This document shows, in pieces, positions 1-59,320 of a stretch of DNA of 64,000 nucleotides. The first letter of the stretch is position 1, and the number at the start of each line of letters is the position of its first letter. A program made the position numbers and the translations under genes. The DNA is from Lachnospiraceae bacterium (GTDB lineage: Bacteria; Bacillota; Clostridia; Lachnospirales; Lachnospiraceae). The stretch is taken from assembly GCA_022483465.1 (NCBI GenBank), contig JAKVNF010000002.1, forward strand, positions 186,001-250,000, read 5' to 3'. The notes beneath the pieces are model-generated. The model searched no databases, was not told the origin of the DNA, and was given only the letters and a program-made list of their open reading frames with translations.

Positions 1-1614
1 ACAGGCGCTATGAAGAGGTACTCACTCTGATCAAAACGGCCATGGAATCCAATCTCCAGAGCGTCCACACGGACTGCCCGACCATCGAGCGCTTTGCCTG
101 GCAGGAGGTCAACCACCTGCTGGCACCGTCTGTGATGTTTCTGAAGCAGGTCCGCCCTCACTGGGAAAAGTTCCTTACGGATCTTCGGGATGCGCAGCTC
201 ACAAAGGAGGATCACTTTCACGACGGAAAGGGAGGCGAGTATTACCCCGGAGCGGGCCTTGTCCCCTCCCAGGCGCCCTGCTATGACCCGAACGTGCTTC
301 CGATTCCAGGACTCGGCGATTTCTACAATGCCCCCGGCTGGGGAAGCAGCATTCTTCTCGGCACCAGATGGCACTATCTCTTTGGCGTTAGTAAAGAACC
401 GGGTTGACGGGTTCCATACCACAACCTCCATGGTGAACTCTCGACGCGATAATGTCTGATGAAGATATAGAATCCCCATTTGGAGCTCTTTTCTTCTCTG
501 CATAATGCCTATCTTGTTATTTATAGTCACATGCTCGGCAAGTGGGTGTATGCTTTTAGGCAATCTAGGTGATGCTTTGTTACATGATGCAACACAGCAC
601 GGATAGGAGTGTACCCAGCTCGAGCTCAAAGTGAGGGATTAGTGGTCTCATGCTAGGCGATCGCTTATCAACCCGTTTCTTAACTAACGCCATCTCTTTT
701 ATGGGGACAGGCGCGTTGTTGCGGACAACTATGAGGCGGGAAAGCGCTACGTCTCCTTCCTCGACACGTGCCTGGATGCAGATGGCCTGCTGTCCTGCGG
801 CCTCGGAGACTGGGGCAATCCAAAGCAGCGCTTTGCAAAAGAGAACATCGACACCGCGCTGTACTATGCCGATGTCAGAACCCTGGCAGACTTTGCAGGG
901 ATCCTGGGAATGCCCGGGGAGCAAGCAGCTTTCCGGAAGAAAGCGCAGGAGATTTCTGAGAACTACAACCTTGTCTTTCTTGCCCGCGATGATAGGTCGG
1001 GAAAAATGAGCTATCGGCTGAAGGACGGATCCCCTGCAACCCAGGCGGCGCTTGCGCTGCCCCTTTTCTGGAAAATGGTTCCCGAAGAAGCCAGGGCAGA
1101 TACCGCCTCAGCCCTTGTCAGACAGGTTGAAGCGGACGGCACCCTGCTTGCGGGGGAGGTGGGACTTGCCTACCTCATCCCGGTCCTCTCGGACCTTGGC
1201 CGGAATGACCTCGTCAATGCCTTCCTCCTTCGAGGGGAGCACCCGGGGTATTATGCCTTTGTGCGGGACGGGGAGACCTCCCTCGGGGAGTACTGGAAGA
1301 CCAATCCCCGAAGCCACAACCACGACATGTTGGGACACATCGCCGCCTGGTATTTCTACGGCATGGCGGGAATCCGGCCTCTTGCACCCGGATTTTCCCG
1401 GGTTCTCATAAGGCCCTGGCTTCCAAAGGAATGCAGCCATCTTACCTGCACCTATCACAGCATAGCGGGCAGCATCACCGTTATGATGGACCGCACAGGG
1501 GATGGGATTTCCCTGAAGGCAGATGCTTCATCGGGAATTACCCTCACTTTGGACACCAGCCTTCTCGGGGATGAAAAGGCAAATCAAAAACAGGAGAGCA
1601 GAACAAGTGAATGA
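1..1614 (+). pseudogene. Alpha-L-rhamnosidase (GH78), 5' end off window, split by a MITE
   Basis: Would hydrolyse terminal alpha-L-rhamnose from plant glycosides. The frame is open from the window edge to a MITE at 384-691. It carries the GH78-type catalytic-domain stretch DCPTIERFAWQE near position 78-113. Removing the MITE and one 8-bp duplication joins HYLF at 383 to YGDRRVVADNYEAG at 700 with no frame change. The restored frame continues through GDWGNPK (around 810-830) and a C-terminal beta domain to a TGA at 1614. As it stands, translation from the 5' part stops at 407 inside the MITE, so the enzyme is probably inactive. The stop overlaps the GTG start of the GH43 gene, which suggests one operon. 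The subfamily differs from the two TDCPQRDER-type rhamnosidases (3091 and 38612). Family call is firm; loss of function is inferred. Confidence 0.85.
384..691 (-). mobile_element. MITE copy 1 (308 bp, IS1595-type ends)
   Basis: Non-coding element flanked by the 8-bp direct repeat ATCTCTTT (376-383 and 692-699). Its ends are imperfect inverted repeats of about 24 bp starting GGCGTTAGT and containing CGGGTTGA. The sequence is nearly identical to the copies at 18484-18791 and 58186-58493. The strand given is the orientation opposite to the copy at 18484. The ends match those of the IS1595-type element at 22861-24064. It carries no transposase and interrupts the rhamnosidase gene. Confidence 0.93.
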
Positions 1615-2989
1615 CATCAGAACCTGGTCAAACAAACGCAATCCGCTGCTTCCGCTGGACATCCATATCCCGGACGCGGAGGGCCACGTCATGCCTGACG
1701 GGAAGCTCTACCTTTACGGGAGCTTCGACGAGAAAGAAGACGTCTACTGCAGCGACCGCTACCACGTGGTCTCGACGCCGGACATGCTCCACTGGACCAT
1801 CCACGACACCTCCCTCTCGGGGGAGCAGATCCCCTGGTTTTCTGATCCGAACGCCCCGAAATACCCCGGCATCGACTGGTCCCACCCGACCCCCTTCATC
1901 CGAAAGATGCTCGAGGAGACAAAGGCGAAGGAAGGCACCGACATGAAGGAGAAGTTCGAGAAGAAGAAGGATGCGGCCCCGGAGCCCCTTCTCTTTGCCC
2001 CCGACTGCCTGGCCCATGAGGGAAAGTACTACCTGTACTTCTGCATGGCGGATGACAGCGAGGGGGTTGCAGTCTCCGACCATCCGGAGGGACCCTTTCA
2101 CGACCCCGTGCGCCTTCCCATCGGCGGCATCGACCCGGCGGTCTTTCAGGACCGGGACGGGAGCGTCTACTACTACTGGGGGCAGCTCTTCTCCCACGGA
2201 GTCAAGCTGAACCCGGACCTGGTCTCCTTTGATCCGAATGCGGTGGTGTCAGACCTTGTGAACGAGGAGAACCACTACTTCCACGAGGGCTCCTCCATGC
2301 GGCGCATCGGGGATACCTACTACTACGTCTACGCCGACATGCAGCGGGGGAAGCCAACCGCCCTCGGGTACGCGACCTCCGACTCCCCGCTCGGCCCCTT
2401 CACCTACCGGGGCATCATCATCGACAACGCCGCCTGCGACCCGAAGAGCTGGAACAACCACGGCTCTATCGAGTGCGTGAACGGGCAGTGGTACGTGTTC
2501 TATCACCGCTCCAGCGGGAATGCGCAGGTCCACCGGAGGCTCTGCGCCGAGAAGATCGAAATTCTGCCGGACGGGACAATCCCGGAAGTGCTGCCCACCT
2601 CCCAGGGCGTGGGAGAACCCTTTGCTCCGGGAGAAGAACTGTATGGTTTTGAGGCCTGTGCCCTGCAGGGCTGCGTTTATATCGGCGCGGCGCCAGGGGT
2701 GGACTACAACAGGCCTCACAAAGAGGCACTTCGCGGCATCGCCCCGGAAGACCAGATGACTTTCCGGTATGTACAAAGTCCCCGGCCCTGGACCGGCATC
2801 CGCATCGGAGGACAGGGCTCTGGCAGGGTGGAAGTGCTCCTGGGAAAAACCCTTGCAGGAGAGCTCGAAATCAGGGACGGAAAAGGGCAGGGCACTCTGT
2901 ATGCTCCTGCGGGAACCTGCCCGCTTACCCTTCGCGTTCTGTCCTGTGAGAATCTTGTGATCGATTCCCTGTGTCTTTTTGCAGACTGA
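1607..2989 (+). CDS. Glycoside hydrolase family 43 with C-terminal CBM6-like domain
   Basis: Predicted beta-xylosidase/alpha-L-arabinofuranosidase-type enzyme of about 460 aa. The N-terminal five-bladed propeller is recognisable from DIHIPDAEGHVMPDGKLYLYGS, FAPDCLAHEGKYYLYF, the GGIDPAVFQD stretch, the HEGSSMRRIG stretch with the likely general acid Glu, and NNHGSIECVNGQWYVFYHR. The last ~90 residues (IRIGGQGSGRVEVLLG... ending LCLFAD) look like a beta-sandwich carbohydrate-binding module. GTG at 1607 is preferred because AGGAGAG lies 9 nt upstream; an ATG at 1571 in the same frame is the alternative. No signal peptide is seen, so it probably acts in the cytoplasm on imported oligosaccharides. 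The start overlaps the stop of the upstream rhamnosidase gene. Exact substrate is not readable. Confidence 0.85.
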   Translation: MNDIRTWSNKRNPLLPLDIHIPDAEGHVMPDGKLYLYGSFDEKEDVYCSDRYHVVSTPDMLHWTIHDTSLSGEQIPWFSDPNAPKYPGIDWSHPTPFIRKMLEETKAKEGTDMKEKFEKKKDAAPEPLLFAPDCLAHEGKYYLYFCMADDSEGVAVSDHPEGPFHDPVRLPIGGIDPAVFQDRDGSVYYYWGQLFSHGVKLNPDLVSFDPNAVVSDLVNEENHYFHEGSSMRRIGDTYYYVYADMQRGKPTALGYATSDSPLGPFTYRGIIIDNAACDPKSWNNHGSIECVNGQWYVFYHRSSGNAQVHRRLCAEKIEILPDGTIPEVLPTSQGVGEPFAPGEELYGFEACALQGCVYIGAAPGVDYNRPHKEALRGIAPEDQMTFRYVQSPRPWTGIRIGGQGSGRVEVLLGKTLAGELEIRDGKGQGTLYAPAGTCPLTLRVLSCENLVIDSLCLFAD

Positions 2990-3001
2990 AGGCCCCGGCA
3001 A

Positions 3002-3065
3002 CTTAAAAAATGTCGTGAGGTGGCAAATCCAGCCCATAGCTCCAAGGCTTTGTCTTTCCTATAAT
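3002..3065 (+). promoter_or_regulatory. Candidate activated promoter with 14-bp upstream motif
   Basis: A perfect -10 box TATAAT lies at 3060-3065, with no convincing -35. At 3002-3015 is CTTAAAAAATGTCG, a 14-mer repeated exactly at 11392-11405 upstream of the GPH symporter gene. A start of transcription near 3072 would exclude the in-frame ATG at 3064 and leave the TTG at 3091 as start. The regulator is unknown; an AraC protein is the natural guess. Confidence 0.45.
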
Positions 3066-3090
3066 GAAAACAGGAATGGAGGAAACCGCC

Positions 3091-5733
3091 TTGAACATTC
3101 AGGATCTTCAACTCAACCATCAGCTGCCGCTCCCCGGCATGCACACCGACCCCCTTGTGCTCTCCTGGAAAGAGGAGGGGCAGGTGGAGAAGGTGCAGAT
3201 CACCCTCTTAAAGGATGACGCGGCCGTCTTTGAAAAAGAGGTCAGGGAGCCGGAAGCCTTTCTGGGGACCCGGCTGAACGCCGACCTTCAGCCCTGCACA
3301 GACTACGAGATCCGGCTTACAGCCTGGGGAGAGAAGACAAAGAAGTCGTGCTACCTTCCCTTCTTTACCGGAAAGCGCGGCAGCGCCTGGGAGGGCGCCT
3401 GGATCACGGCCCCCGGGGACCCGGACGTTCCGTTCTCCCTGGAAAAGACCTTTGAACTGAAAGCGCTCCCGAAAAAGGCGGTCTTTCTCTTTTGCGGCCT
3501 CGGCCTTGCGGAGGTGTTCGTCAACGGAAGTAGGGCGCAGCGCGAAGTCCTGACCCCCGGGTACCAGTCCTACGACAGCCATGTCTTTGCGGACGGCGTG
3601 GACATCACGGACCTTCTGGTTCTTGGCAGGAACACGATCCGGGTCGATCTTGCCGACGGGTGGTACCGGGGCCGGATCGGCTTTGGCGGCGGCTATACGA
3701 AGGTGTACGGGGCGCGGAACTGCCTCATCGGAGAGCTCTGGTGCGACGGGAGCTGCGCCCTGAAGACGGATGCAACCTGGCTGGCCGCGCCGCAGGAGGT
3801 GCTGTTCTCCTCAATCTACGACGGCGAGATCCAGGACCCCGGCTTCCTCCTCCATGAGCGTACGCCGGCGGTCCCCTGCATGCTCTGGACACCGGAGGGG
3901 GTTGGCCCCCTGACGGATCGCCTGAACCCGCCGGTGGTGAAAGGGACAGGTCTTCCCGCAAAGCAGCTCCTGCACACAAAACACGACGAGCTCGTCCTCG
4001 ACTTTGGTCAGGAGATCACGGGCTGGATGGCGCTTTCGATCCCCGAGGATCCTGCCTTTTCCAGGGGCCGGGCCCTGGTCCTCTCCACCTGCGAGGTCCT
4101 GCAGGATAAGTGCTTCTGGAACGAGAACTACCGGACGGCAAGGTCCCAGTTTTCCCTTGTCCTGGATGGAACAGCCCGGACGGTCCTTCCGCGTTTTACC
4201 TTCTTTGGCTTTCGGTACCTTCGGATTCAGCTCCTTGCCAATCCCCAGGTCGTGACGGAGAAGATCCCGGTGGCGGAACCCGTCCCGGGAGAAGAGCCCT
4301 TTACCACCTGCGAGGTCCTTGCGGGGACCGACATCACCGCTTCGCTCTCTGAGGAGTTGCTAAAAGCCCTCTCCATCCAGGCGGTCCCCGTCAGCAGTGA
4401 GCTCGTGCAGACGGGCTTTCTCACCGCGGGGGACCCTGCTGTCAACCAGCTCTTTTCCAACATCCTCTGGGGCCAAAAAGACAACTTCCTCGACGTCCCC
4501 ACGGACTGCCCCCAGCGGGATGAGCGCCTCGGCTGGACCGGGGATGCCCAGATCTTCTCGGAGACCGCGCTCTTTCAGTACGACTGCACCGCGTTCTTCC
4601 GCAAGTACCTCTATGACTGCCGGGCGGAGCAGATAAAGGTCGGCGGAAGTCTCCCCAACACCGTGCCGAGGCTGAACCGCGGCATGGTCGCCTCCTTCGG
4701 GGCAAGCCCCTGGGCGGATGCCGCCTGTGTGATCCCCTGGAACCTCTATCAGGCTTCTGGCGACAGGGAGCTTCTCAAGGAGTGCCTTCCCGGCATGCGC
4801 ATGCTCGTGGATGCCATCCGAAAAGAGGAGGAAAAGATCCCTGGCCCACACCTTGTGAAATCGGGCTTTCACTTCGGAGACTGGCTCGCCCTGGACAACA
4901 AAGAGCCAGGGCCCTTCGGGGCAACGGATCCCCTGTTTTTGGCGAGCGCCTACTACTATGAGGATGCCCGGCACACTGCAGAGGCGTTTAAGATCCTTGG
5001 GGGAGAAGACCAAGCGAAAGAATACCAGTCCCTTGCGGAGGACATCCTCTCCGCCATCCGGGCCAAGTACTTTGACGGGGACGGCCTCTGCAGCATCCGG
5101 ACCCAGACCGCTGCCGCAGTCTCTGTCATGATGAATCTCAATCCCACGAAAGAGGCAAGACAGAGACAGGGAGATCTCCTGGCAGATCTTGTGCATGAAA
5201 ACAGCGATCACTTAAATACCGGCTTTGTGGGGACGGGGTTCCTCCTCCAGGCGCTCTCAGAGACGGGACACGGAGGCCTGTCCGTGACGCTCCTCTTAAA
5301 CCGCGACATCCCCTCTTGGCTCTACGAGGTGGAAATGGGCGCCACGACGATCTGGGAGAGGTGGAACAGCCTCCTCCCGGATGGAAAGGCCAACCCGGAT
5401 GGGATGAACTCCTTCAACCACTACAGCTTCGGCAGCATCGCCGGGTGGGCAGCGAGGTACCTGGGCGGCATCCGCGAACTTGCACCCGGCTATGTAAAGG
5501 CAAAGATTCAGCCCTTCTTTGACAGGAGGCTTGGAAGCTTTTCCATCCGCCAGGACACCCCCAGCGGAACGTATTGCTGCAGCTGGGCTTGTCAGGAAAC
5601 GGGCACCGTCACGGTGGAGGTCACCGTTCCGGATGGCTGCACGGCCGTGTTTACAGCAGGAGATCTCCAGGAGACATTACAGAAAGGAACCTGGCACTTT
5701 GTGGTGCCGGTTGACATGGAGGACAAGAGATGA
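3091..5733 (+). CDS. Alpha-L-rhamnosidase (GH78)
   Basis: About 880 aa, full length for GH78. It has an N-terminal Fn3-like domain (MHTDPLVLSWKEEG...), then a jelly-roll lectin-like domain (VFLFCGLGLAEVFVNGSR...). The (alpha/alpha)6 barrel follows, with TDCPQRDERLGWTGD near residue 471, FHFGDWLALD near 592 and EMGATTIWERW near 748, then a C-terminal beta domain. It would remove alpha-L-rhamnose from glycosides. TTG at 3091 is chosen because GGAGGA sits 7 nt upstream and the likely promoter's -10 overlaps the alternative ATG at 3064. The 3' end overlaps the next gene by 4 nt (ATGA), so translation is probably coupled to the GH2. No signal peptide is visible. Confidence 0.92.
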   Translation: MNIQDLQLNHQLPLPGMHTDPLVLSWKEEGQVEKVQITLLKDDAAVFEKEVREPEAFLGTRLNADLQPCTDYEIRLTAWGEKTKKSCYLPFFTGKRGSAWEGAWITAPGDPDVPFSLEKTFELKALPKKAVFLFCGLGLAEVFVNGSRAQREVLTPGYQSYDSHVFADGVDITDLLVLGRNTIRVDLADGWYRGRIGFGGGYTKVYGARNCLIGELWCDGSCALKTDATWLAAPQEVLFSSIYDGEIQDPGFLLHERTPAVPCMLWTPEGVGPLTDRLNPPVVKGTGLPAKQLLHTKHDELVLDFGQEITGWMALSIPEDPAFSRGRALVLSTCEVLQDKCFWNENYRTARSQFSLVLDGTARTVLPRFTFFGFRYLRIQLLANPQVVTEKIPVAEPVPGEEPFTTCEVLAGTDITASLSEELLKALSIQAVPVSSELVQTGFLTAGDPAVNQLFSNILWGQKDNFLDVPTDCPQRDERLGWTGDAQIFSETALFQYDCTAFFRKYLYDCRAEQIKVGGSLPNTVPRLNRGMVASFGASPWADAACVIPWNLYQASGDRELLKECLPGMRMLVDAIRKEEEKIPGPHLVKSGFHFGDWLALDNKEPGPFGATDPLFLASAYYYEDARHTAEAFKILGGEDQAKEYQSLAEDILSAIRAKYFDGDGLCSIRTQTAAAVSVMMNLNPTKEARQRQGDLLADLVHENSDHLNTGFVGTGFLLQALSETGHGGLSVTLLLNRDIPSWLYEVEMGATTIWERWNSLLPDGKANPDGMNSFNHYSFGSIAGWAARYLGGIRELAPGYVKAKIQPFFDRRLGSFSIRQDTPSGTYCCSWACQETGTVTVEVTVPDGCTAVFTAGDLQETLQKGTWHFVVPVDMEDKR

Positions 5734-8183: not shown

Positions 8184-9127
8184 TCACCAAAGAGCTGTAC
8201 CTGTACGACGGCAATCCCGATGTCCGGCTCACCACCTATTGCCTGGATTCTCCGGAGCTCATGGCGGTGGGGCCGCGCCCCGCAGTCCTCGTCCTCCCAG
8301 GGGGCGGGTACTTCTCCTGCTCGGATCGGGAGGCGGAGCCGGTGGCCCTTGCCTTTGCCACGATGGGATACCATGCCTTTGTGCTTCGCTATTCGGTCTA
8401 TGATCCAAAGGGGTCCGTCTTCCCGGACATCACGAAAGACATTCCGCTGAAGGAGGCCTGCCAGCACCCAAGACCCGTGCGGGAGGTGGGCATGGCAATG
8501 CGGCTGATCCGGGACCACGCAGAGGCGTGGAAGGTCGATGCGGACCGGATTGCGGTCTGCGGCTTCTCCGCAGGGGGCCACAATGCGGCGATGTACGGGG
8601 CATACTGGAACACGGATCTGGTGACCGAGGGGAAGTTTGAGCCCATCCGCCCGGCTGCCCTGATCCTGGGGTATCCTCTGATCGACTACGTGCTGATGCG
8701 GGATCTCTTAAAGACTGCCGCCCCGATGGATCAGGCCTTCTTCCGGCAGTCGAACCGCGCCTTCCTCGGGGGAAGAGAAGACGATGCAAAGCTTGATGAG
8801 GTGTCCCCGGCAAGACACGTGACAAAAGACTTCCCGCCGACCTTCCTCTTTGCAACAACAACGGATACCATGGTGCCCCCGCAGCACAGTCTCGCCCTTG
8901 CCATGGCGCTGCAGAATGCAAAAATCCCCTACGAGCTGCACCTCTATGAGGGCGGCCCCCACGGCCTCTCCCTCGCGGATCAGGCAAGCGCAACCAGCGA
9001 GTGGGAGACAGAGCCCCGCGTGGCGGGCTGGATCCAGGATGCAAAGACCTGGCTCTTAAAGCGCTTTGCGATTCGTCTCCCGAAGGAGCCCGCGTGGATC
9101 GCGATGGCACAGGGAGAAAAACAGTGA
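8180..9127 (+). CDS. Alpha/beta-hydrolase, acetyl-xylan-esterase-like
   Basis: 315 aa. The oxyanion-hole motif LPGGGYFSCSDREAEP is near residue 35-50, the nucleophile elbow GFSAGGHNAAMYG has its Ser near residue 121, the Asp lies in TTDTMVPPQHS, and the His in YEGGPHGLS. This is the pattern of the small carbohydrate esterases (BD-FAE/AXE-like, annotated as alpha/beta hydrolase or endo-1,4-beta-xylanase B-like) that deacetylate oligosaccharides. Start overlaps the GH2 stop and its own stop overlaps the next gene's GTG. It probably strips acetyl or acyl groups so that the neighbouring glycosidases can act. No signal peptide. Confidence 0.85.
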   Translation: MITKELYLYDGNPDVRLTTYCLDSPELMAVGPRPAVLVLPGGGYFSCSDREAEPVALAFATMGYHAFVLRYSVYDPKGSVFPDITKDIPLKEACQHPRPVREVGMAMRLIRDHAEAWKVDADRIAVCGFSAGGHNAAMYGAYWNTDLVTEGKFEPIRPAALILGYPLIDYVLMRDLLKTAAPMDQAFFRQSNRAFLGGREDDAKLDEVSPARHVTKDFPPTFLFATTTDTMVPPQHSLALAMALQNAKIPYELHLYEGGPHGLSLADQASATSEWETEPRVAGWIQDAKTWLLKRFAIRLPKEPAWIAMAQGEKQ

Positions 9128-9980: not shown

Positions 9981-10178
9981 ACACAAAGCCTTGGAGCAGA
10001 CAAAGGCAGGACCCGGAGAAATGTCAGAGCGGTATTTTTCCACACCCATTTTGCATCTAAAAAAATGCAGGGTGAAACGAAATCCATGCCAGATACAGAA
10101 AGAGGCCGGGACGGTATGATGATCCTGTCAGAAAAAAATAAAAACCACGTCAACAAAAGTTGAAGAAGGGATAGCAAG

Positions 10179-11384: not shown

Positions 11385-11391
11385 AACACAC

Positions 11392-17447: not shown

Positions 17448-19677
17448 ATGGCGTCAATCAGAAAGAAAACCAAAAAGGGACATGATTACTACTACATCGT
17501 CACCAGTAGACGGGCTCCAGGGAGCAAGTACCCCAAAGAGGTCGTCCTGGAATACATCGGCCCTGTTGACAAACTCTTCGATCGTGTGCTGAACGAGTAT
17601 TACCTCCGGACAGGTGACCCAAAGGGAAACGCATCTGGAAAACAGGCGGAACATGAAACTGGCGGGGTGAGGTTCAAGTGCTATTCGCATGGCGGACCGA
17701 TGGCGATGTTCCGCATGGCTCAGTACATTGGAGTCGAGAAGATCCTGGACGAGGCGTTTTCATCCAAGACAATCCAAGGGATGTCCCGCAGCAGAGTGCT
17801 CCTGCTTGCTGCTATTCACAGAGCAATCGATCCTGCCAGCAAGAAAGCGTTTTCCGCCTGGGCGCAGACAACAAGTCTCCCGTATCATCTCGGCTTCGCA
17901 CCGGAAGCCCTGTCTTCCCAGGCATTCTGGGAAGCGATGGACGGGATCTCCGAGGAGGAAGTCCACAAAGCACAGCAGCTGCTCACCAAAAGACTGCTCG
18001 AGATGTACCCCGATGAGTTGAACGACCTGCACCTCGACTACACGAATTACTTCACCTACATCGACACCCGGAACGGCCGCTGCGTGGTGTGCCAGCGGGG
18101 GCACAACAAGCAGAAGCGGACTGATCTGCGGCAGTTCAGTCTTGCGATGATCACCAGTCATCTGCTGCAGGTTCCTGTCCTCTGGGAGATGTATGAGGGA
18201 AGCAGGAATGACAAGGCAGAGTTCGGTGCATTCATGGAGAAGGTACAGAAGGATCTCCCGGATACAATCGGGAAATCTCTGGACGAAGTCACGGTTTCTT
18301 TCGATGGCGGCAGCAATTCGGAGGAGAACTTCAAGTCCCTCCGGGTACACTTCATCTGCGCCCACTCACTCGACTCCCATAAAGAGCTGTATGACATCGA
18401 CGTGGATCAGTACCAGGAAGTGAAGCTTGCAAACGGCCACACAAGACGTGCATACCGCATCGACGGGCTCACATTTTCCGGAAGGCGTTAGTTAAGAAAC
18501 GGGTTGATAAGCGATCGCCTAGCATGAGACCACTAATCCCTCACTTTGAGCTCGAGCTGGGTACACTCCTATCCGTGCTGTGTTGCATCATGTAACAAAG
18601 CATCACCTAGATTGCCTAAAAGCATACACCCACTTGCCGAGCATGTGACTATAAATAACAAGATAGGCATTATGCAGAGAAGAAAAGAGCTCCAAATGGG
18701 GATTCTATATCTTCATCAGACATTATCGCGTCGAGAGTTCACCATGGAGGTTGTGGTATGGAACCCGTCAACCCGGTTCTTTACTAACGCCTTCCGGAAT
18801 CACCGGAACGGGCATTCTGACGTACAGCGAGGATCTGTACATCGGCCAGGAAGCGCAGATGGGCCGGGACATCGAGAAGTTCAAGGCAAAGTTTGAGGAG
18901 TTCAGGTCTCGCTGCCAGAATCCCAGATCCCGCATCTACTCTTCCATGAGGAAGCGCAAAACCGAGGTAGAAAAGCAGATCAGCGAGGTCACGAAGGAAA
19001 ACGAGGAGCTGCTGAAGGAGCAGAAAGATCAGGCGAAGAAGGGACGAAAGAAGAAGCCAAAGGAGGTCCCGGTATGGGACGAAGCCAGTGAGTTTCTGAA
19101 GCTTACCCGCAGCTGTTTCACGGGGCTGCGCACGCTGGAGCAGTTCATCACCATCATCCCTTCCGGAAACATGGAGAGCGGATACGATGTGAGCTTCCAG
19201 CTCGATGAAGCGAAACTGGCAGTCTATAAGAGAAAGTACTACGGCAAGAAGCTGACCTGCACCGACAGAACGGACTGGTCGACGGAGGAGGTCCTCTCTT
19301 CGTATGCTTCACAGGAGTGCATTGAGGATCTCTTCAAGACGAGCAAGAAAGTGGACCACTTTGCCGTACGCCCGCAGTATCACTGGACAGACGACAAGAT
19401 CCGGGTACACGTCTTTCTCTGCTTCCTCGCGATCACGATCGCAGAGGTACTTCGAAGACGGATGGCAGATGAAGGTCTTACCTATACAAAGGCGGCAATG
19501 CTGGACGAGTTGTGCAAAATCCACGACGGATGGATTCTGATGCCGGGTCAGAAGAAGGCAGTCAGGGCACTCGAGGAACTAACGCCAAGTCTGCAGAGCA
19601 TGTGGAATATCGTCGAGAAGATACCTTCGCCAGATAATGTAAAAAGGGATAAAAAAAGAAAACTAAGAAAGAATTAA
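17448..19677 (+). pseudogene. IS1634-type transposase, split by MITE copy 2
   Basis: DDE transposase of the IS4/IS1634 group. The N-terminal part carries RKKTKKGHDYYYIV, GGPMAMFRMAQYIG and LHLDYTNYFTYIDT. The C-terminal part carries GRDIEKFKAKFEEF, a Lys/Glu-rich stretch, SQECIEDLFKTSKKVDHFAVRPQY and HVFLCFLAITIAEVLRR. Excising 18484-18791 and one TTCCGGAA joins LTFSG to ITGTGILTYSED with no frame change, giving 637 aa. As it is, the first part ends at 18491 inside the MITE. The element is therefore probably unable to move unless helped in trans. Confidence 0.85.
18484..18791 (+). mobile_element. MITE copy 2 (308 bp), inside the IS1634-type transposase
   Basis: Same 308-bp sequence as copy 1 in the opposite orientation. 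Flanked by the 8-bp repeat TTCCGGAA (18476-18483 and 18792-18799), itself a palindrome. Begins GGCGTTAGTTAAGAAACGGG and ends in the matching inverted repeat ...ACTAACGCC. This makes a nested insertion: MITE inside IS inside GH78. Confidence 0.95.
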
Positions 19678-22830: not shown

Positions 22831-22860
22831 CTGCGTCAGTTAAGAACACTTTTTTCAAAA

Positions 22861-24064
22861 GGCGTTAGTAAGGATCCGGGGTGATAAGCTATGTAAAAAT
22901 TTGTAGGAACATATTTATACAGCAAGCAAATTCAGTTCCTTGACATCATCATAGTGATGCACTCTCTTCGGATCACGCACCAGGAAGAGCTTCTCTGCAA
23001 GTTCATCCACCGACATCCTCATCCGGTATGCTGCACGGAATACCATGTTGTAGCGGTTCAGGTACTTGGTAGCCACACCGCGGTAGTCGTAGTAGCGGTT
23101 CTTGATGAAGCTGTGCAGATTGTTAACCGTGTTCAGGTTGAAGAAGCTGCCTGTCTCCTTCTTCACATTCATAACGCTGAGTTCCAGTACCTTGCCCAGC
23201 TTCGGATATACGTTCAATTCCGTCCGTGAGGAAAAGAGCCCCCTTCTTGACATGACCTGTGTAGATGTCGACGACATCCTCCGTGGAAGGTCTTGCACGG
23301 TTCTCCGATTTTACAACCAGATCACCGCTTTTGCGCTGAACTGCAGTGCAGATGCAGATCTGCTCGTCAGAAAGGCCGCACTTAGATGCCGGAGTACCGC
23401 GCTTACGGGGCTTTCTCCTGGCGTCGGGCCCGAATTTTGTCCCTTTCTCCGACTCTGGTACGTAGGTTTCATCAGCCTCGACAACTTCCTCGACCATTGC
23501 AGGACTGACCTCCTGAAGATCCTCAATCGCCAGCATGATCTTATGCCTCATAAAGAAGAGGCTGGTATGGCTGATCCGGATATGCTGAAGATCAAGTCCA
23601 TCTCTTGTGTCATCAAGGGATACGCCCATAAGCGTGTCAGCAAGGACGGTCTTCCAGACACCACTGCTGTAATGTGAGCCAGACAGAGACGTGCTACTTG
23701 CTGTAACAAATGACTTTTCGCATGCCCGGTACAGAAATGTCTGCTTGCCATGCTTGTGACCGTTCCTAACAACATGTGAACTGGTATGGCAGACCGGACA
23801 TTCCATCCGGGGAACGATCTTCACCGAAGAAGCAAACGACTTCTCATGGTTCAGACGGTCCATGATCTTGTTAACGGGAATCTTAAGATCCGAATCGGAG
23901 AGGTTGTTTCCTGCAGCCAGTATGCATTCGATGTTACCCATAGTCGTGTCCTCCTGACACGACTATTATAGGTCAAGTCCTAAAAGGACGTCGTACATTC
24001 AAATGTACAAATCCGGAAAAACTTTTGGGATCGCTACTTATCAACCCGTTTCTTTACTAACGCC
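22861..24064 (-). mobile_element. IS1595-type insertion sequence, parent type of the MITE
   Basis: Inverted ends begin GGCGTTAGTAA and share CGGG.TGATAAG (left 22861-22889, right 24036-24064). The 9 bases TTTTCAAAA occur on both sides (22852-22860 and 24065-24073), consistent with the 8-bp duplication usual for the family plus one chance match. Between the ends lies one transposase gene broken by a frameshift. The ends closely match those of the three 308-bp MITEs. Confidence 0.88.
22915..23941 (-). pseudogene. IS1595-family transposase (ISXO2-like), frameshifted
   Basis: N-terminal zinc-ribbon (CPVCHTSSHVVRNGHKHGKQ...), then VEEVVEADETYVPESEKG with the first catalytic Asp, then LFLTDG with the second. 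The third catalytic residue is in NTVNNLHSFIK in a different frame. The frame shifts near 23215-23235: the first part (to 23123) goes astray after LFLTDG, and the second part (down to 22915) resumes with ELNVYPKLGK. The product should therefore be non-functional unless frameshifting rescues it, which is not usual in this family. Another intact copy elsewhere would be needed to move the MITEs. Confidence 0.85.
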
Positions 24065-24085
24065 TTTTCAAAATTTCTTCATTTT

Positions 24086-46603: not shown

Positions 46604-46604
46604 G

Positions 46605-47308: not shown

Positions 47309-47312
47309 GAAC

Positions 47313-48020: not shown

Positions 48021-48056
48021 CCCGTTTCCCTCCGGAAATTGTAATCCCGCAAAAAG

Positions 48057-48099: not shown

Positions 48100-48157
48100 G
48101 CAACCATCACACGACAGACAACCTTTCAGGATTCAGGAAGGAGCAGGAGGATATACC

Positions 48158-49792: not shown

Positions 49793-49824
49793 GAATCGGA
49801 TCAGAATTCTGAGAGGAGGCTGCC

Positions 49825-50118: not shown

Positions 50119-50140
50119 GAAAAATAGAGGACAGCCGTCC

Positions 50141-50178
50141 GAGGGGCTGCAGGAGAGATTCCTGCAGCCCCTCTTTTG
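50141..50178 (+). terminator. Terminator of the hcp operon
   Basis: 14-bp perfect stem GAGGGGCTGCAGGA / TCCTGCAGCCCCTC, 6-nt loop, followed by TTTT. Confidence 0.93.
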
Positions 50179-50211
50179 GTCTCCGGGGCGAGGATACCGG
50201 GCTTTATTCGT

Positions 50212-50254
50212 GTTGCTAAGGCAACAGAATAACTGCTTTCCCAGTACTACACTA
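50212..50254 (+). promoter_or_regulatory. Operator TGTTGCTAAGGCAACA and -10 box for the DUF438 operon
   Basis: Palindromic arms at 50212-50227 with centre 50219.5; TACACT at 50249-50254, again 29.5 bp from the centre. Third member of the local operator set. Confidence 0.75.
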
Positions 50255-50319
50255 TGGATTGTCAAGAGAACAAGAGATCAGAAAAACAAGAGCGCCGAAC
50301 CAAAAGGAGGCATTTCGAT

Positions 50320-51792: not shown

Positions 51793-51804
51793 AGGAGGAA
51801 GCCT

Positions 51805-52467
51805 ATGGAAAACCACATGCCGGCGGGAGAGATCTTCCGCATTCAGGACCGTTACCCCTCGGTGCCGGGGTGCACGATCTCCGCAAAGATGACGGACGAG
51901 GAGACGCTCCCCGTCATCCACTTCTCCCTGGCGCCGCACACGGAAATCAGCCGGGAGATCTACCAGTCGAAAAAGCTCTGGATCATCGCGGGCGGCAGGG
52001 GCCGCGCCACGGTGGCGGGGAAACCGGATGTCACGCTTTCCGAAGGGGACATCTACCCCGTCCCCACAAACGTCCCCGCGGGCGTTGCCGCGGATGATGC
52101 GCAGCTGATCTACACAGAAGTGATTTTTGGAGAGGAGACTACAATGAACGAGATGTTAAAGAGCGGTGAGGTGTTTGCGTTAAAGGACCTGCTTCCCTTC
52201 CAGGAGGGCCGGGTTGTCAATATGGACCTCGTCCACAACGAGAAGGGAAAGCTCGCGCTGATGAGCTTTGCCGCGGGGACCGGCCTTCCCGAGCACGCCG
52301 CCCCCGGCGATGCCCTGCTCTTTGGCCTGGAGGGAGAGGGGATCATCGGCTATGAGGGGAAGGAGTACACCCTCCACGCCGGCGAGAACTTCCGCTTCGA
52401 CCGGGGAGGCCGGCACTATGTTAAGGCTTTATCAAACTTTAAGATGGCACTTTTACTCACAGTTTGA
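51805..52467 (+). CDS. Bicupin protein
   Basis: 220 aa with two cupin halves: the first around LWIIAGGRGRATVAGKPDVTLSEGDIYPVP, the second around MSFAAGTGLPEHAAPGDALLFGLEGEGIIGYEGKEYTLHAGE. The second keeps HxxP and a later His (GGRHYV) that could bind a metal. AAAGGAGG before ATG; 12 nt after the DUF438 gene, so in the same redox operon. Role unknown; perhaps a metal-dependent small-molecule enzyme or a sensor. Confidence 0.83.
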   Translation: MENHMPAGEIFRIQDRYPSVPGCTISAKMTDEETLPVIHFSLAPHTEISREIYQSKKLWIIAGGRGRATVAGKPDVTLSEGDIYPVPTNVPAGVAADDAQLIYTEVIFGEETTMNEMLKSGEVFALKDLLPFQEGRVVNMDLVHNEKGKLALMSFAAGTGLPEHAAPGDALLFGLEGEGIIGYEGKEYTLHAGENFRFDRGGRHYVKALSNFKMALLLTV

Positions 52468-52491
52468 TATACTTTACCTGTCAGATAAAAT
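52464..52491 (+). promoter_or_regulatory. Candidate enolase promoter
   Basis: TTGATA (52464-52469), 16-bp spacer, TAAAAT (52486-52491). A small CCGGGG / CCCCGG hairpin follows in the leader before AGGAGG. Confidence 0.5.
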
Positions 52492-52536
52492 TTCTGCCGC
52501 ACCGGGGGCCGCTGTCCCCGGCAAGGAAGGAGATAG

Positions 52537-53898
<1,362 letters not shown>

Positions 53899-53916
53899 TC
53901 CGTCATTCGGCACACG

Positions 53917-53957
53917 GGGCATGCCGCCGGAGAAATTCCGGCGGTGTGCCCTTTTTT
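53917..53957 (+). terminator. Terminator after eno
   Basis: 15-bp stem GGGCATGCCGCCGGA / TCCGGCGGTGTGCCC with a mismatch or G-T pair, short loop, six Ts. Confidence 0.92.
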
Positions 53958-53980
53958 GCATACGAGAGGAGAAGTTTGAG

Positions 53981-54583
53981 ATGGAACAGGCAAGTCCCGG
54001 GTGCCCGGAGGGGACCGAGGGGAGAAAGATGCTGCAGCGGATGAACCGCTCCCACGAATACCTGCGGACGTTCGCCCTGCCGCTGCTTCAATATCACGAA
54101 AACATGCGCATCCTGGATGCGGGGTGCGGAGGCGGCGCAACGATAAAGGCGCTCCTTTCCCTGGCGCCGGGAAGTCAAATCAATGGGATCGACATCTCCG
54201 AGGAGGCAATCCGCCTTGCCGGGGAGGTCAACCAGGACGAGCTGGAAAAGCGCGTCGTCCTGCAGCGGGCCTCAGTGGATCAACTGCCCTTTACAGGGGA
54301 CACCTTTGACCTTGTGACCGCGGTGGAGACCGTGTACTTCTGGGAGGACCCGCAGGCGAACATCCGGGAGATCTTCCGCGTCCTAAAGCCCAGTGGAACC
54401 CTGGCAATCCTTGCCGAGGCATCGGATCCTTTGCTCCACCAGGACTGGACAAACCCCGGCGGAAAGATGGTCCTCTACCGTCCAGGTGAGTACCGCACCT
54501 TCCTGTCCCGGGCGGGCTTTATCAACTTAAAGACCTACTTCGGCCCCGGGGACACGGTCCTTGTCACCGGACGAAAGCCCTGA
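53981..54583 (+). CDS. SAM-dependent methyltransferase, class I
   Basis: 200 aa. Motif I ILDAGCGGGATIKALL near residue 48, motif II GIDISEEAIRLA, motif IV FDLVTAVETVYFW, and post-motif RVLKPSGTLAIL. Substrate not readable; resembles UbiE/type-11 methyltransferases. ATG 53981 after GAGGAGAAG; the longer frame to 53921 runs into the eno terminator. Confidence 0.87.
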   Translation: MEQASPGCPEGTEGRKMLQRMNRSHEYLRTFALPLLQYHENMRILDAGCGGGATIKALLSLAPGSQINGIDISEEAIRLAGEVNQDELEKRVVLQRASVDQLPFTGDTFDLVTAVETVYFWEDPQANIREIFRVLKPSGTLAILAEASDPLLHQDWTNPGGKMVLYRPGEYRTFLSRAGFINLKTYFGPGDTVLVTGRKP

Positions 54584-54602
54584 ACTCCCCCAAAATCCAA
54601 AC

Positions 54603-54653
54603 AGCCGCCGGAGTGAGCGACGCGTGTCGTCTTCTCACTCCGGCGGCTTTCTG
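54603..54653 (+). terminator. Terminator after the methyltransferase
   Basis: Stem AGCCGCCGGAGTGAG / CTCACTCCGGCGGCT with a 16-nt loop and T-rich tail. Confidence 0.85.
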
Positions 54654-54700
54654 TTAAGATAGCAGGGTAGCAAACGACAGAGAAAAAGAGGGAAAAAGTT

Positions 54701-56380
54701 ATGATGATCGATCAGGCAAAGCAGCGGATCATCCGGGTCATCGGACACAAGAACCCGGATACCGACTCGATCTGTTCCGCGATCTCCTACGCCTATCTGA
54801 AGAACCAGATCAGCGGGGGAAAGGAGCACTACGAGCCCAGGAGAGCGGGGGAGATCAGCAAGGAGACCGCTTTCGTCCTGAACCACTTCGGCGTGGAGAC
54901 CCCGCGCCTCTCGGTGGACATGAGTCCCACCATCGCAAACATCGACATCCGGCAGGAGGAGGGCGTGGACGGACAGATGTCCACGAGAGCCGCCTGGCAG
55001 CGGATGAACGACCGCAACATCGACACGCTCTGCGTCACCGACAGCGAGCACAACCTGCTGGGTATCATCACGGTGCGTGACATCGCCAACGCAAACATGG
55101 AGCTCTTTGACACCACGGTCCTGGCCAAGGCCAAGACCAGCTACAAGAACCTCCTGGAGGTGCTGGACGGGGAGATGCTCACCGGAGACCCCAACGGCTA
55201 CATCACCACCGGCCAGATCCACGTGGGCACCAGCCCCGAGGCCATGGAGGAGCTGATCCACGAGGGAGATCTCGTGATGGTCACCAACCGGTATGAGGCC
55301 CAGATGTGCGCCATCGACTACGGGGCAAGGTGCCTCGTGGTCTGCATGAGTGCCGCAGTGCCGGATGTGCTGCTCAAGCGCGCCAAGGCCGCGGGCTGCA
55401 CCGTGATCCAGACCCACTACGACACCTACGCGGCCTCCCGCCTCGTCAGCATGGCGGCGCCCATCGAGCACTTCATGGTGACCAAAAACCTTGTCACCTT
55501 CAACATCAACACCCCGGTGGAGGAGGCAAGGAAGGTCATGGCGAGCCTGCGCCACCGCTACTTCCCGATCCTGGACAAGGACGGCCACTACTGCGGCGTG
55601 ATCTCCAGAAGAAATTTGTTAAACATGCACAGGAAGCGCGTGATCCTGGTGGACCACAACGAGGAGTCCCAAGCTGTGGACGGCCTCGAGGATGCGGAGA
55701 TCCTGGAGATCATCGACCACCACCGGCTGGGAAAGCCGGAGACCTCCGGGCCGGTGTACTTCCGAAACGAGCCCGTGGGGTGCACTGCGACGATCGTCTA
55801 CGCGATGTTCCACGAGCACAACGTGGAGATCCCGAAGAAGATCGCGGGCCTTCTGATGTCCGCCATCCTCTCCGACACCCTGGTGTTCCACTCCCCGACC
55901 TGCACGATGCTGGATCGGGCCGCCGCCAGCGACCTCGCGAACATCGCCGGGGAGAACATCGACGAGTACGTGCGGAGCATGTTTGAGGCAGGAGAGGATC
56001 TGACCGGCCGCTCCGCCGAGGACCTTCTGTACACGGACTACAAGGAGTTCGCGATCGGGGACATCTCGATCTGCGTGGGCCAGGGCTTCTTTGTCTCCAA
56101 GACGAACTTTGACCGGGCAAAGGCCCTGATCCAGGGGTATCTTGCGACCGCACTTGCCCACTCCCAATCGAGCATGATCTTCTACATGCTCACCGACATC
56201 CCGAGCCAGAGCACCTGCCTGCTCTACGTGGGGAAGGGGTCGGACGAGCTGATCTCCGAGGCCTTCCACGTCAGGGCTGAGAGCGGGTGCGCAAGTCTCC
56301 CCGGCGTGGTCTCGAGGAAAAAGCAGTTCATCCCGCCGGTCCGGGACCGGATCCTGAACCCCGAGCAGGACGGGATGTGA
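54701..56380 (+). CDS. ppaC: Manganese-dependent inorganic pyrophosphatase, CBS-DRTGG family II
   Basis: 559 aa. DHH-type catalytic part split around a regulatory insert: VIGHKNPDTDSICSAISYAYL at the start, EIIDHHRLGKPETSGPVYFRNEPVGCTATIV and LLMSAILSDTLVFHSPT later. The insert has CBS repeats (MNDRNIDTLCVTDSEHNLLGIITVRDIA and ASLRHRYFPILDKDGHYCGVISRRNLLN) with a DRTGG-like domain between. Adenine nucleotides regulate such enzymes through the CBS pair. Hydrolyses PPi. ATG 54701 or 54704. Confidence 0.94.
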   Translation: MMIDQAKQRIIRVIGHKNPDTDSICSAISYAYLKNQISGGKEHYEPRRAGEISKETAFVLNHFGVETPRLSVDMSPTIANIDIRQEEGVDGQMSTRAAWQRMNDRNIDTLCVTDSEHNLLGIITVRDIANANMELFDTTVLAKAKTSYKNLLEVLDGEMLTGDPNGYITTGQIHVGTSPEAMEELIHEGDLVMVTNRYEAQMCAIDYGARCLVVCMSAAVPDVLLKRAKAAGCTVIQTHYDTYAASRLVSMAAPIEHFMVTKNLVTFNINTPVEEARKVMASLRHRYFPILDKDGHYCGVISRRNLLNMHRKRVILVDHNEESQAVDGLEDAEILEIIDHHRLGKPETSGPVYFRNEPVGCTATIVYAMFHEHNVEIPKKIAGLLMSAILSDTLVFHSPTCTMLDRAAASDLANIAGENIDEYVRSMFEAGEDLTGRSAEDLLYTDYKEFAIGDISICVGQGFFVSKTNFDRAKALIQGYLATALAHSQSSMIFYMLTDIPSQSTCLLYVGKGSDELISEAFHVRAESGCASLPGVVSRKKQFIPPVRDRILNPEQDGM

Positions 56381-56398
56381 GAGAAAGTGGGGCTTTCC

Positions 56399-56731
56399 AT
56401 GAAGCGAACCCTCCTGCCAGCTCTCCTTCTTGCACTCTCGTTATCCCTTTCCGGCTGCGGGGAGAGCGCAGAGGCCATCGCACAGCAAAGCGCCCTGTCC
56501 CTCTCGGTCACCTTTGACGATATTTCCGTCCGGGTGCTGAAAAAGGTCTACGAGTCCTACCCCTCGGAGACGGCAGCCTCTGCCCTCTCCGGCGCCTACC
56601 TCTCCCTCGCCTCGCACCTTGCCGATGCCGGGAAAGAGGAGGAGGCAGAGGATAAGGTGGAAGAGGGCCGCGCTCTCCTGCCAGACGATCCCGCCCTGCA
56701 GGCATACGAACTGCCACAGGAAGGAAACTAA
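56399..56731 (+). CDS. Small lipoprotein with TPR-like helices
   Basis: 110 aa. Signal peptide with a lipobox: MKRTLLPALLLALSLSLSGC, lipidated Cys at residue 20. The mature part is helical (VYESYPSETAASALSGAYLSLASHLADAGKEEEAEDKVEEGRALLPDDP), like one or two tetratricopeptide repeats. ATG 56399 preferred; GTG 56387 in frame is the alternative. 18 nt after the pyrophosphatase gene, probably co-transcribed. Function unknown. Confidence 0.8.
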   Translation: MKRTLLPALLLALSLSLSGCGESAEAIAQQSALSLSVTFDDISVRVLKKVYESYPSETAASALSGAYLSLASHLADAGKEEEAEDKVEEGRALLPDDPALQAYELPQEGN

Positions 56732-56740
56732 AGACAACCA

Positions 56741-56776
56741 AAAAGCCAAAGTCGGTGTCTGCCGGCTTTGGCTTTT
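56741..56776 (+). terminator. Terminator after the lipoprotein gene
   Basis: Stem AAAAGCCAAAGTCGG / CCGGCTTTGGCTTTT (one G-T pair), 6-nt loop. Confidence 0.88.
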
Positions 56777-56809
56777 GATTTGTATTCGACTTTAGTCGGC
56801 TGAGCTTGC

Positions 56810-57533
56810 GATTCGCTTACGAAGTAAGCGAATCCTTGCGAAGCAGTAAACCACCCGCTGTGCGGGTGAGAGTAAGAGGTTATACAAATAAATCACCTTT
56901 CCTTACAATAGAGGTGCTCAAGCCACCATTGATGAAAGGAAAGGTGATTTAGATGCCGAAGGCTAATAGTGCAGCACACACAAAATGGTTGTGCAAATAC
57001 CATATCGTCTTCACTCCGAAGTATAGGCGAAAAATAATTTACAATCAATACAGGAAGGACCTTGCGGAGATACTGCATGATCTATGCGCATACAAAGGAG
57101 TGGAAATCATAGAGGGGCATCTCATGCCAGATCATGTGCATATGCTGGTAAGCATTCCGCCAAAGATCAGCGTAGCCTCGTTTATGGGTTACTTGAAGGG
57201 GAAAAGTTCGCTCATGATGTTTGACCGGCACGCAAATCTGAAATACAAGTTTGGGAACCGGCACTTTTGGTCTGAGGGGTATTATGTCAGCACGGTGGGA
57301 TTAAACGATGCGACGGTAAAGAAGTATATCCGGGATCAGGAGAGAGCAGACATCCTGCAGGATAAGATGAGTGTGAAGGAGTACGAGGATCCTTTCGGGG
57401 CGAAGCCTGGAAAGGATCCACAAGAAAGGACGTAAAAAACCGCCCCTTTAGGGGCGGCCAGGTGATAATACCTAAGCGAAGTATGAGGTGAGGAGCTGGA
57501 CGTAGCCCAGGATGGACGAACCTCATACTTCGC
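56810..57533 (+). mobile_element. IS200/IS605-type element, approximate limits
   Basis: A subterminal hairpin GATTCGCTTA / TAAGCGAATC (56810-56819 and 56825-56834) precedes the transposase gene. Two more inverted repeats follow it: CCGCCCC / GGGGCGG at 57440-57457 and a 14-bp pair at 57476-57489 / 57520-57533. Such imperfect hairpins are the recognition sites of Y1 transposases. Exact ends cannot be set without an empty site. Confidence 0.6.
56953..57435 (+). CDS. tnpA: IS200/IS605 transposase TnpA
   Basis: 160 aa HUH/Y1 transposase. HUH motif in GHLMPDHVHMLVSIPP near residues 55-70, and the catalytic Tyr region near VKKYIRDQERAD. KYHIVFTPKYRRKI at the N-terminus is typical. No tnpB is next to it. 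Complete, so possibly active. Confidence 0.93.
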   Translation: MPKANSAAHTKWLCKYHIVFTPKYRRKIIYNQYRKDLAEILHDLCAYKGVEIIEGHLMPDHVHMLVSIPPKISVASFMGYLKGKSSLMMFDRHANLKYKFGNRHFWSEGYYVSTVGLNDATVKKYIRDQERADILQDKMSVKEYEDPFGAKPGKDPQERT

Positions 57534-57783
57534 GTTTGTGGTAAGACGCTGAGCGGGCGGCCCCCGCTTTCCGTCTCCGGGAGCGAGCTCCCGGAGACGG
57601 TGAAACTCAGTTTTTCGTATGTAGATTGTATTCAAATGTAACATCGTAGATGCAATGCTGATGTTTCTAAAATCCTGGAAATCAACTGCTTAGAGGCATA
57701 GTATCTGCATCTTCGAATTAAAAATGAGTACAACAAAAAGGCCCCATGGTTAGGAGCCGATAAAAGATATTCGGCTTTGCTTT
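57436..57783. other. Non-coding stretch with three inverted repeats
   Basis: Holds the 7-bp hairpin at 57440-57457, the 14-bp inverted repeat GCGAAGTATGAGGT (57476-57489 / 57520-57533, 30-nt loop) and a 14-bp hairpin CCGTCTCCGGGAGC / GCTCCCGGAGACGG (57571-57584 / 57587-57600). The first two probably belong to the IS200/IS605 end; the third may be a terminator or the edge of the IS91-type module. No gene seen. Confidence 0.55.
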
Positions 57784-59320
57784 TTATGCGCTGTTGGATT
57801 TAGCTTCAGGCCTTGGCTTGAAATCTACTTTCACCATATCAGCGCCACACCTTGGACAAATATGATAATCATCCGAAAATAGCTCAAGGAGTATCTCGCT
57901 TTTACCCATGCCAGCAAAACGTGAGACAAACCTCTGCTTCTTTTGCTGTTTCTGAATACGGGCTACATTCTTCTTCCTTTGAGAATTACTCAGATACCCA
58001 TAGTATCGGATCTTCTGGAAGCCCTTAGGTAGGATATGAAGAAGAAATCTGCGAATGAATTCCTGTAAGCGGACTTTGATAACTACCCATTTTCCACCCT
58101 GCTTATTGTCTTTGGCTTTGAACGTTACTGTTTCTCTGTCATAGCTGAGAATCCTGCCCTCACTGATTGCGACACGATTAACATTGGCGTTAGTAAAGAA
58201 CCGGGTTGATGGGTTCCATACCACAACCTCCATGGTGAACTCTCGACGCGATAATGTCTGATGAAGATATAGAATCCCCATTTGGAGCTCTTTTCTTCTC
58301 TGCATAATGCCTATCTTGTTATTTATAGTCACATGCTCGGCAAGTAGGTGTATGCTTTTAGGCAATCTAGGTGATACTTTGTTACATGATGCAACACAGC
58401 ACGGATAGAAGTGTACCCAGCTCGAGCTCAAAGTGAGGGATTAGTGGTCTCATGCTAGGCGATCGCTTATCAACCCGTTTCTTAACTAACGCCTTAACAT
58501 ATCTGCCGAGATACTGGATGGCATTGCCCTTGCCGCATAGTGTCTCTTTGATATCAATGTCCCAGGATTTTTTATACATGCTGTCCTTGAAAGCCTGCCA
58601 GTCCTGAGGAGTTCTGATGCTGTCATCACCGGGCATGATCAGTTTCCCGGCATCATAAAGCTCTTGCAGGCCGGCCATGAACTTACCTCTGAACTTTGAT
58701 TTCAGGACATTTACAGGGAGACAGAAGTGTTTCTTTTTCCCTTTAACAAATCGCTTTGGCTTTCCCTTCAGCCCGCCTCCGGAAACAATGCAGTGGATAT
58801 GCGGATGGAACATCATGTTGTTTCCCCATGTATGAAGCACCTGAATGACACCGGGTGTTGCACCGAGAAACTTTTTATTCTGCATCAGTTCCACAAGTGT
58901 CTGTCCTGAAGCCTTATGCAGCAGATCATAGAGCAGACTCTTGTTGGCAAAGATCAGAGGATTCAGCTCACATGGAGCGGTAAAGACGACATGAAAGTAT
59001 GAGCAATCCACAAGCTCAGACTGGCGTTCATCAACCCAGATTTCCTTGTTGACATACTGATCCATTGGGCAGTTACGGTTACCACATGAGTTGTAGTGAA
59101 TTTCGGTATAACCACAGCGGGGGCATTCTACTTTGTTATAGCCCATTGCTTCCGTCCGACACTTGGAAATACAATCGGCAGCTTTGTACTGTTCGGAAGT
59201 GATGTGTCCTGCATAGTCTTTCTGATACTGCGGCCATCCGAGCTGAAAGATCTTCTGAATGGGGTGAGTCTTCTTATTGGCAGCCTTTGCCTGCTCTCGT
59301 GATACGATCTTTATACTCAT
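57784..59320 (-). pseudogene. IS91-family transposase, split by MITE copy 3
   Basis: N-terminal zinc-binding region (CPRCGYTEIHYNSCGNRNCP), HUH motif FHPHIHCIVSGGG, and the motif IQYLGRYVNRVAIS that holds the catalytic Tyr. The MITE cuts exactly within YLGRYV. Excising 58186-58493 and one duplication restores a 406-aa frame. The C-terminal part ends with CPRCGADMVKVDF. ATG 59320 has GAGGT upstream and lies 10 nt after the recombinase stop. Rolling-circle transposase, now disrupted. Confidence 0.88.
58186..58493 (-). mobile_element. MITE copy 3 (308 bp), inside the IS91-type transposase
   Basis: Same element as at 384 and 18484, same orientation as copy 1. Flanked by TTAACATT (58178-58185) and TTAACATA (58494-58501), 7 of 8 matching. 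A few base changes from the other copies. Second case of this MITE sitting in another element's transposase gene. Confidence 0.93.

Follow-up and report, generated by a model that had tools for sequence, protein, structure and literature searches.

The 64,000-nucleotide stretch of a Lachnospiraceae bacterium genome examined here (GenBank assembly GCA_022483465.1, contig JAKVNF010000002.1, positions 186,001 to 250,000; hereafter the window) carries three copies of a 308-bp repeat which, with a probability of roughly 0.93 as judged from the sequences, is a non-autonomous element, a miniature inverted-repeat transposable element (MITE), which transposases of the IS1595 family encoded in the same genome move in trans. 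We hold this reading because the repeat shares its ends with transposase-bearing insertion sequences (IS), is flanked by target duplications, follows a common target rule with them, has empty sites in the same genome and takes part in a hybrid that has a duplication of its own. The genome comprises 4.3 Mb in four contigs, named C1 to C4 below, and the insertion sequences with the same type of ends are called here ISA and ISB. The copies in the window and their target duplications are as follows.

384..691, + strand: MITE copy 1, 308 bp, of the sequence type with 22 copies
376..383 (left) and 692-699 (right): target duplication of MITE copy 1, ATCTCTTT
18484..18791, - strand: MITE copy 2, 308 bp, identical to copy 1, in reverse orientation
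18476..18483 (left) and 18792-18799 (right): target duplication of MITE copy 2, TTCCGGAA
58186..58493, + strand: MITE copy 3, 308 bp, of the sequence type with 16 copies
58178..58185 (left, TTAACATT) and 58494-58501 (right, TTAACATA): target duplication of MITE copy 3

An earlier note on this DNA, made from the window's sequence alone, had described three nearly identical, non-coding copies of one length, with imperfect inverted ends of about 24 bp and 8-bp direct repeats on their borders, and had taken them for a MITE family. The description holds. Copies 1 and 2 are identical and copy 3 departs from them at 4 positions; the termini begin GGCGTTAGT, with the left and right ends agreeing at 22 of 24 positions, and only the flanks of copy 3, which read TTAACAT(T/A), contain a mismatch (one in 8). 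The longest open stretch in the four main sequence types of the repeat has 85 codons, and that of the window type matched no Pfam family at E<0.1 (best value 0.22). Though non-coding itself, the MITE breaks a gene at all three of its sites in the window. Copy 1 disrupts a gene for a GH78 rhamnosidase, leaving pieces at 42-407 and 910-1614. Copy 2 interrupts an IS1634 transposase gene (frames 17448-18491 and 18751-19677, covering positions 2-248 of the IS1634 profile on one side and 281-477 on the other) and copy 3 an IS91 transposase gene (positions 1-115 of Y2_Tnp on one side and 114-182 on the other).

The count of copies in the full genome, which the earlier note had proposed, was made with an interior 33-mer of the MITE, allowing up to 3 mismatches, and with the reversed 33-mer as a control. 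The 33-mer was found at 115 places (46 exact and 68 with one common change) and the control at none, which rules out chance. From 114 of these 115 places and additional targeted stretches, about 552 kb or 13% of the genome with the earlier loci included, the family comprises at least 114 MITE copies: 111 uninterrupted, two outer copies of nests and one that is split. All of the 111 uninterrupted copies are exactly 308 bp long, 57 are on the + and 54 on the - strand, and they fall into only six sequence types (of 66, 22, 16, 4, 2 and 1 copies) with a total of 15 variable sites. The split copy, at C1:1118900-1121400, is interrupted by an ISAzo13-type element (466 amino acids), with 5 bp of the MITE present on both sides.

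Target duplications are found throughout the family. Exact 8-bp duplications border 97 and exact 9-bp duplications 11 of the 111 uninterrupted MITEs (108 together), so that the 8-bp length named in the earlier note is valid genome-wide, with 9 bp as an addition. In ISA (n=43) the numbers are 33 with 8 bp, 6 with 9 bp and 4 with none, in ISB (n=3) one each, and the ratio of 8-bp to 9-bp duplications does not differ between the MITE and ISA (p=0.39). Twelve copies which share an insertion event, lie in an array or belong to a repeated nest were left out of the target-rule count. The pattern WWNNNNWW, where W is A or T, was present at 84 of 86 MITE and 32 of 33 ISA sites with an 8-bp duplication, and WWNNNNNWW at 17 of 17 sites with a 9-bp duplication (10 MITE, 6 ISA, 1 ISB), where the background amounts to 3.6% for the window and 6.5% for flanking DNA. 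As read from these sites, the MITE and ISA evidently follow one strict target rule. They have even used the identical site: in one repeated host element the 8-bp sequence TTCTGATT is occupied by a - strand MITE of the 66-copy type, a + strand MITE of the 16-copy type and an ISA, whose flanks now lie apart (left at C3:423773, right at C1:474659), apparently through recombination between ISA copies. Contexts differ and duplications are present, so the outcome that would have spoken against mobility, copies in one constant context and without duplication, was not observed.

Empty sites, which the earlier note had suggested looking for in related strains, were found within the genome itself and, less directly, in homologous genes at a distance above strain level. 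Nine copies of one host IS were found, six of which have a MITE at TAAACGAT while three have the single uninterrupted target. Since the flanks of the six are the same, they are most simply the result of one insertion that was later spread by the host IS. For the rhamnosidase gene broken by copy 1 we compared the five best same-genus homologues, and in four of them the spacing between the two halves equals that of the window minus 316 bp (219, 219, 219 and 231 nucleotides, the last with a later match start); these proteins are 39-75% identical over both halves and therefore do not represent strain-level empty sites. As to placement in genes, 66 of 108 MITE sites are in open frames (120 codons or more, of which 20 or more on either side), compared with 87% of 1609 WWN4WW sites in the window and 72% of 169 WWWN4WWW sites. 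This suggests that the MITE avoids genes, a comparison of little weight since chance frames are long at 58% GC.

The intact transposase that the earlier note expected elsewhere in the genome is indeed present. A search of the genome with the PF12762 profile gave 52 places, 46 of which were assigned to ISA (43 full copies, one with a MITE array, one split and one truncated); the others are two ISB, the ISB of the window, two remnants on C4 and a distant transposase at C1:1611134. ISA is 1214 bp long, with an open frame of 349 codons at 44 of the 46 places (342 codons from the ATG in the one copy read), while ISB has 1187 bp and 336 codons and is represented by two intact, identical copies at C1:635737 and C1:1472860. 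Both proteins score above the curated cut-offs of PF12762 and of NF033547 (NCBIfam IS1595) for the catalytic domain and above that of NF050000 for the IS1/IS1595 zinc domain, so the ends are of the IS1595 type, as had been proposed, and not those of another transposase family. The window contains one element of this kind.

22861..24064, - strand: 1204 bp, a broken IS1595 element of the ISB type (identity to the intact ISB copies about 95%)
22852..22860 (left) and 24065-24073 (right): its 9-bp target duplication, TTTTCAAAA

Its ends match those of the MITE, as stated earlier, and its transposase frame is broken into two overlapping frames (22915-23298 and 23123-23941). Two points can be added to the earlier note. 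ISB is the closer in its ends, both MITE ends having 1 mismatch in 24 to the ISB left end and 3 in 24 to the ISA ends, and the transposase was probably supplied mainly by ISA, of which the window contains no copy. Ends of this type, with at most 1 mismatch, number 336 in the genome. Of the 326 within the stretches first fetched, 314 pair up as termini of 157 full elements; two further ones, fetched later, belong to the split MITE and a split ISA. One more candidate partner, the IS1595-type transposase at C1:1611134-1611571 (38% identical to ISB), was dropped, because the only ends within 4.8 kb of it belong to a neighboring MITE nest.

In the split ISA, at C1:1349000-1352900, other DNA of about 2 kb separates the two parts, and 6 bp of ISA are present on each side of it. 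Among the 43 full ISA copies, the two main types (with 18 and 16 members) are distinguished by 17 changes, all of them between positions 801 and 1087, and this stretch looks like a conversion or recombination tract. ISA and ISB stand in tandem, 7 bp apart, at C1:634516-636923, and flanks of several ISA and ISB copies are swapped among C1:474659, C3:423773, C1:634516 and C1:635737, so that a left flank from one site stands opposite a right flank from another, to all appearance the trace of a rearrangement via recombination between IS copies.

These data are in accordance with a model in which a transposase binds terminal repeats of about 24-29 bp (GGCGTTAGT...CGGGTTGA), pairs two such ends and inserts the intervening DNA at target sites that begin and end with two A or T positions, cutting them with a stagger of 8 bp or, in some cases, 9 bp. 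The transposase would come probably for the most part from ISA (46 copies, broken ones included), with the rarer ISB as a second source. From the sequences we infer that it is the ISA protein that does the work and that movement makes new copies. The interpretation of the repeats as a MITE family is borne out by their shortness and inverted ends, the lack of a transposase gene, the duplications and the presence of autonomous partners with the same ends.

Evidence of such pairing, and indirect evidence of movement in trans, comes from a 340-bp hybrid at C3:522817-523156, in which a MITE comes immediately after 32 bp of an ISA end. The hybrid is flanked on both sides by TTTTTATA and the MITE within it has no duplication of its own; the whole is duplicated and the inner MITE is not, therefore one ISA end and one MITE end moved together. 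The same ISA/MITE junction is present in the array-bearing ISA at C1:1014618-1017095, which is the likely source of the hybrid. Furthermore, an ISA-type right end is present in the MITE type with two copies; a 9-bp duplication flanks one of them and none the other. Inside an end of the array-bearing ISA, at C1:1014650-1015905, four MITEs are placed head to tail, separated three times by the spacer TAAGCAAT, and their types alternate A-B-A-B. Type B adjoins the ISA end in the hybrid and type A is in that place in the present array, and this order would fit an array in which B came first, A entered later at the same 8-bp site and the pair was then doubled. Two further MITEs stand head to tail at C2:928411-929034, with AAATTGTT between them and on either side. 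Identical 624-bp units of a MITE within a MITE, at C1:1610334 and C3:596878, are flanked by duplications that differ, which would follow from movement of the whole nest in one piece. Based on the four-copy array, the two-copy array and the relocated hybrid, it can be proposed, as a rather doubtful extension of the model, that the transposase readily re-targets its own 8-bp duplication, which would give head-to-tail stacks, and that stacks with borrowed ends seed new hybrids. Alternatively, the arrays may have grown by unequal recombination following a first doubling.

Movement was claimed to be recent from the three copies of the window, and this is sustained by the whole family. Besides there being only six types, at most one change in 34,188 bp is private to one MITE copy. 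For comparison, the 43 full ISA copies form 11 types and have 9 private changes in 50,988 bp over 42 copies, a count which omits one older-looking copy (C2:494335). At the ISA rate about 6 private changes would be expected in the MITE, and the probability of at most one is 0.017 with the ISA rate fixed and 0.046 when both counts are treated as random. Mutation rates are of the order of 1e-9 to 1e-10 per site and generation, which gives a 95% upper bound of about 1.4e5 to 1.4e6 generations for the mean age of the MITE. The burst was presumably very recent.

Several observations weigh against the picture of a recent burst driven mainly by ISA. Of the 111 uninterrupted MITEs 3 lack an exact duplication, as do 4 of the 43 full ISAs, the three MITEs being copy 3 of the window (one mismatch), the MITE within the hybrid and C4:754958, which is unexplained. 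The fifth rhamnosidase homologue has a spacing of 261 instead of 219 nucleotides. The MITE ends are nearer to the ISB left end (1/24) than to ISA (3/24), thus ISB could be the main driver, and the number of private changes could be depressed by gene conversion or by assembly consensus. The last two points lead to explanations of their own.

If ISB, and not ISA, supplied the transposase that spread the MITE, the ISA burst would be a parallel event and the two would share ends and target rule by common descent. The closeness of the ends and the presence of two identical intact ISB copies agree with this, but intact ISB is represented twice and full ISA 43 times, the hybrid travelled in one piece together with its ISA end, the two-copy MITE type has an ISA-type right end with a 9-bp duplication at one of its copies, and the identical TTCTGATT site was used by MITE and ISA. 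We consider ISB as the main source possible, with the odds clearly on the side of ISA. It is less likely still that the near-identity of the MITEs is the product of gene conversion or consensus assembly instead of a recent burst. That one MITE type bears an ISA-type end, and that the changes between the two main ISA types are clustered in a tract-like manner, could be attributed to conversion; on the other side, the main MITE types have stayed distinct instead of blending into many mosaics, 9 private changes survive among 42 ISA copies of this very assembly, and the target duplications are likewise almost undecayed.

A repeat of this kind could also be a domesticated regulatory or structured-RNA repeat that serves the host. 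Folded as RNA, the full-length MITE of the window type forms a strong hairpin, with z of -4.8 and -4.3, but the interior alone does not (z +0.5 and -0.7 for the window type, +0.9 and -1.15 for the commonest type), and since the signal vanishes when the ends are removed, the hairpin is due to the terminal repeats. Searching the MITE against Rfam matched no family, and neither a promoter-like nor a terminator-like pattern was found in it. There is no orientation bias relative to long frames (24/43), and the breaking of genes by all three window copies does not speak for a service to the host either. We therefore rejected this explanation, which is hardly credible beside that of a MITE moved in trans.

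The MITE was found in none of 36 same-genus and 24 same-order genomes, 30 of these 60 being of high quality (completeness of 90% or more, contamination of 5% or less), and vertical inheritance in the genus was rejected on these grounds. Among 61 other same-genus genomes, three contain a match to the ISB protein, the best at 47% identity, and in a sample of 390 other genomes from the class the exact ends were not found. One named record with the exact ends is Fusobacterium naviforme, where an element at 1425-2641 of the stretch examined has 82.6% DNA identity to ISB. Its transposase matches lie in two frames and it has no matching 8-bp border repeat. The IS group is likely to be of horizontal origin. 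As to a vehicle, the MITE was not found in plasmid or phage collections, in which this genome and genomes very near to it may not be represented, its 33-mer was not in viral contigs, ISA was not in the phage collection, and for the ISB protein no relative was confirmed in viral contigs, while its matches in 64 plasmid records are all below 60% identity. Spread via phage or plasmid was rejected, given that neither the MITE nor its 33-mer turned up in the collections searched for them. Two viral contigs deserve mention. Positions 8815-8938 of IMGVR_UViG_3300044558_000057, at the edge of the contig, are identical to the first 124 bp of ISA, which is either a virus carrying an ISA end or a mis-binned host fragment. 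A second contig has a single end of this type (GGCGTTAGTTAGAAAACGGGTTGA, 2837-2860) and, in the 11 kb compared, no significant match to the ISA or ISB protein.

Other mobile DNA in the window includes IS200-type (56953-57435) and IS66-type (60528-62759) transposase genes, so that several kinds (IS200, IS66, IS91, IS1634 and IS1595) are present there amid glycoside hydrolase genes.

Both IS1595-derived MITEs and high-copy bacterial MITEs are already known. The MITE of the archaeon Haloquadratum walsbyi that is linked to ISHwa6, of the IS1595 family, is listed with 165 bp, 7 copies, inverted repeats of 25 and direct repeats of 8 bp (PMC3852290, Table 4); by that table it is likewise non-autonomous with IS1595-type ends, whereas the family described here has 308 bp, at least 114 copies and identity within each type. 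No large IS1595 MITE family was encountered in the literature searched, which leaves most subscription papers outside. ISApl4 (PMC12561309), an IS1016-type member of the IS1595 family, measures 712 bp and is present 39 times in one genome. It resembles ISA and ISB in its transposase domain and A/T-rich 8-bp duplications, and the same report cites duplications of 7-9 bp for other IS1016 elements. ISA and ISB differ from it in being longer, in having the zinc domain and in having ends in common with a MITE; an N-terminal zinc-binding domain is ascribed to all IS1595 groups but IS1016 (PMC8101967). A circular form of ISApl4, joined over a single 8-bp repeat, has also been reported (PMC12561309). 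Such a circle would yield array spacers as well and is a possible intermediate of the arrays described here. Merlin transposons of eukaryotes resemble the IS1595 group, by the description given in PMC8101967, in a related catalytic domain, terminal GG and 8- or 9-bp duplications.

Among short non-autonomous repeats with tens to hundreds of copies, a class to which our family belongs together with Correia, ERIC, Chunjie and QMITE, the numbers given in PMC10969869 are more than 120 copies for Correia and up to 711 for ERIC. QMITE and Chunjie vary in size and sequence according to the same source, while here 111 of 111 uninterrupted copies have 308 bp and their ends recur on elements with an intact transposase, of which the genome has many copies. 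In decayed bacterial MITE families the target rule and the enzyme partner must be guessed. Here about 100 almost unmutated insertions and dozens of same-end elements with intact transposase are present in one genome, in which empty sites, hybrids, nests and arrays are all legible. This allows the target rule of an IS1595-type transposase to be read cleanly and leaves a natural record of the ends that can form pairs. The notable features of the family are its copy number and youth, its near-unmutated state, the sharp target rule, the natural hybrid and the head-to-tail arrays.

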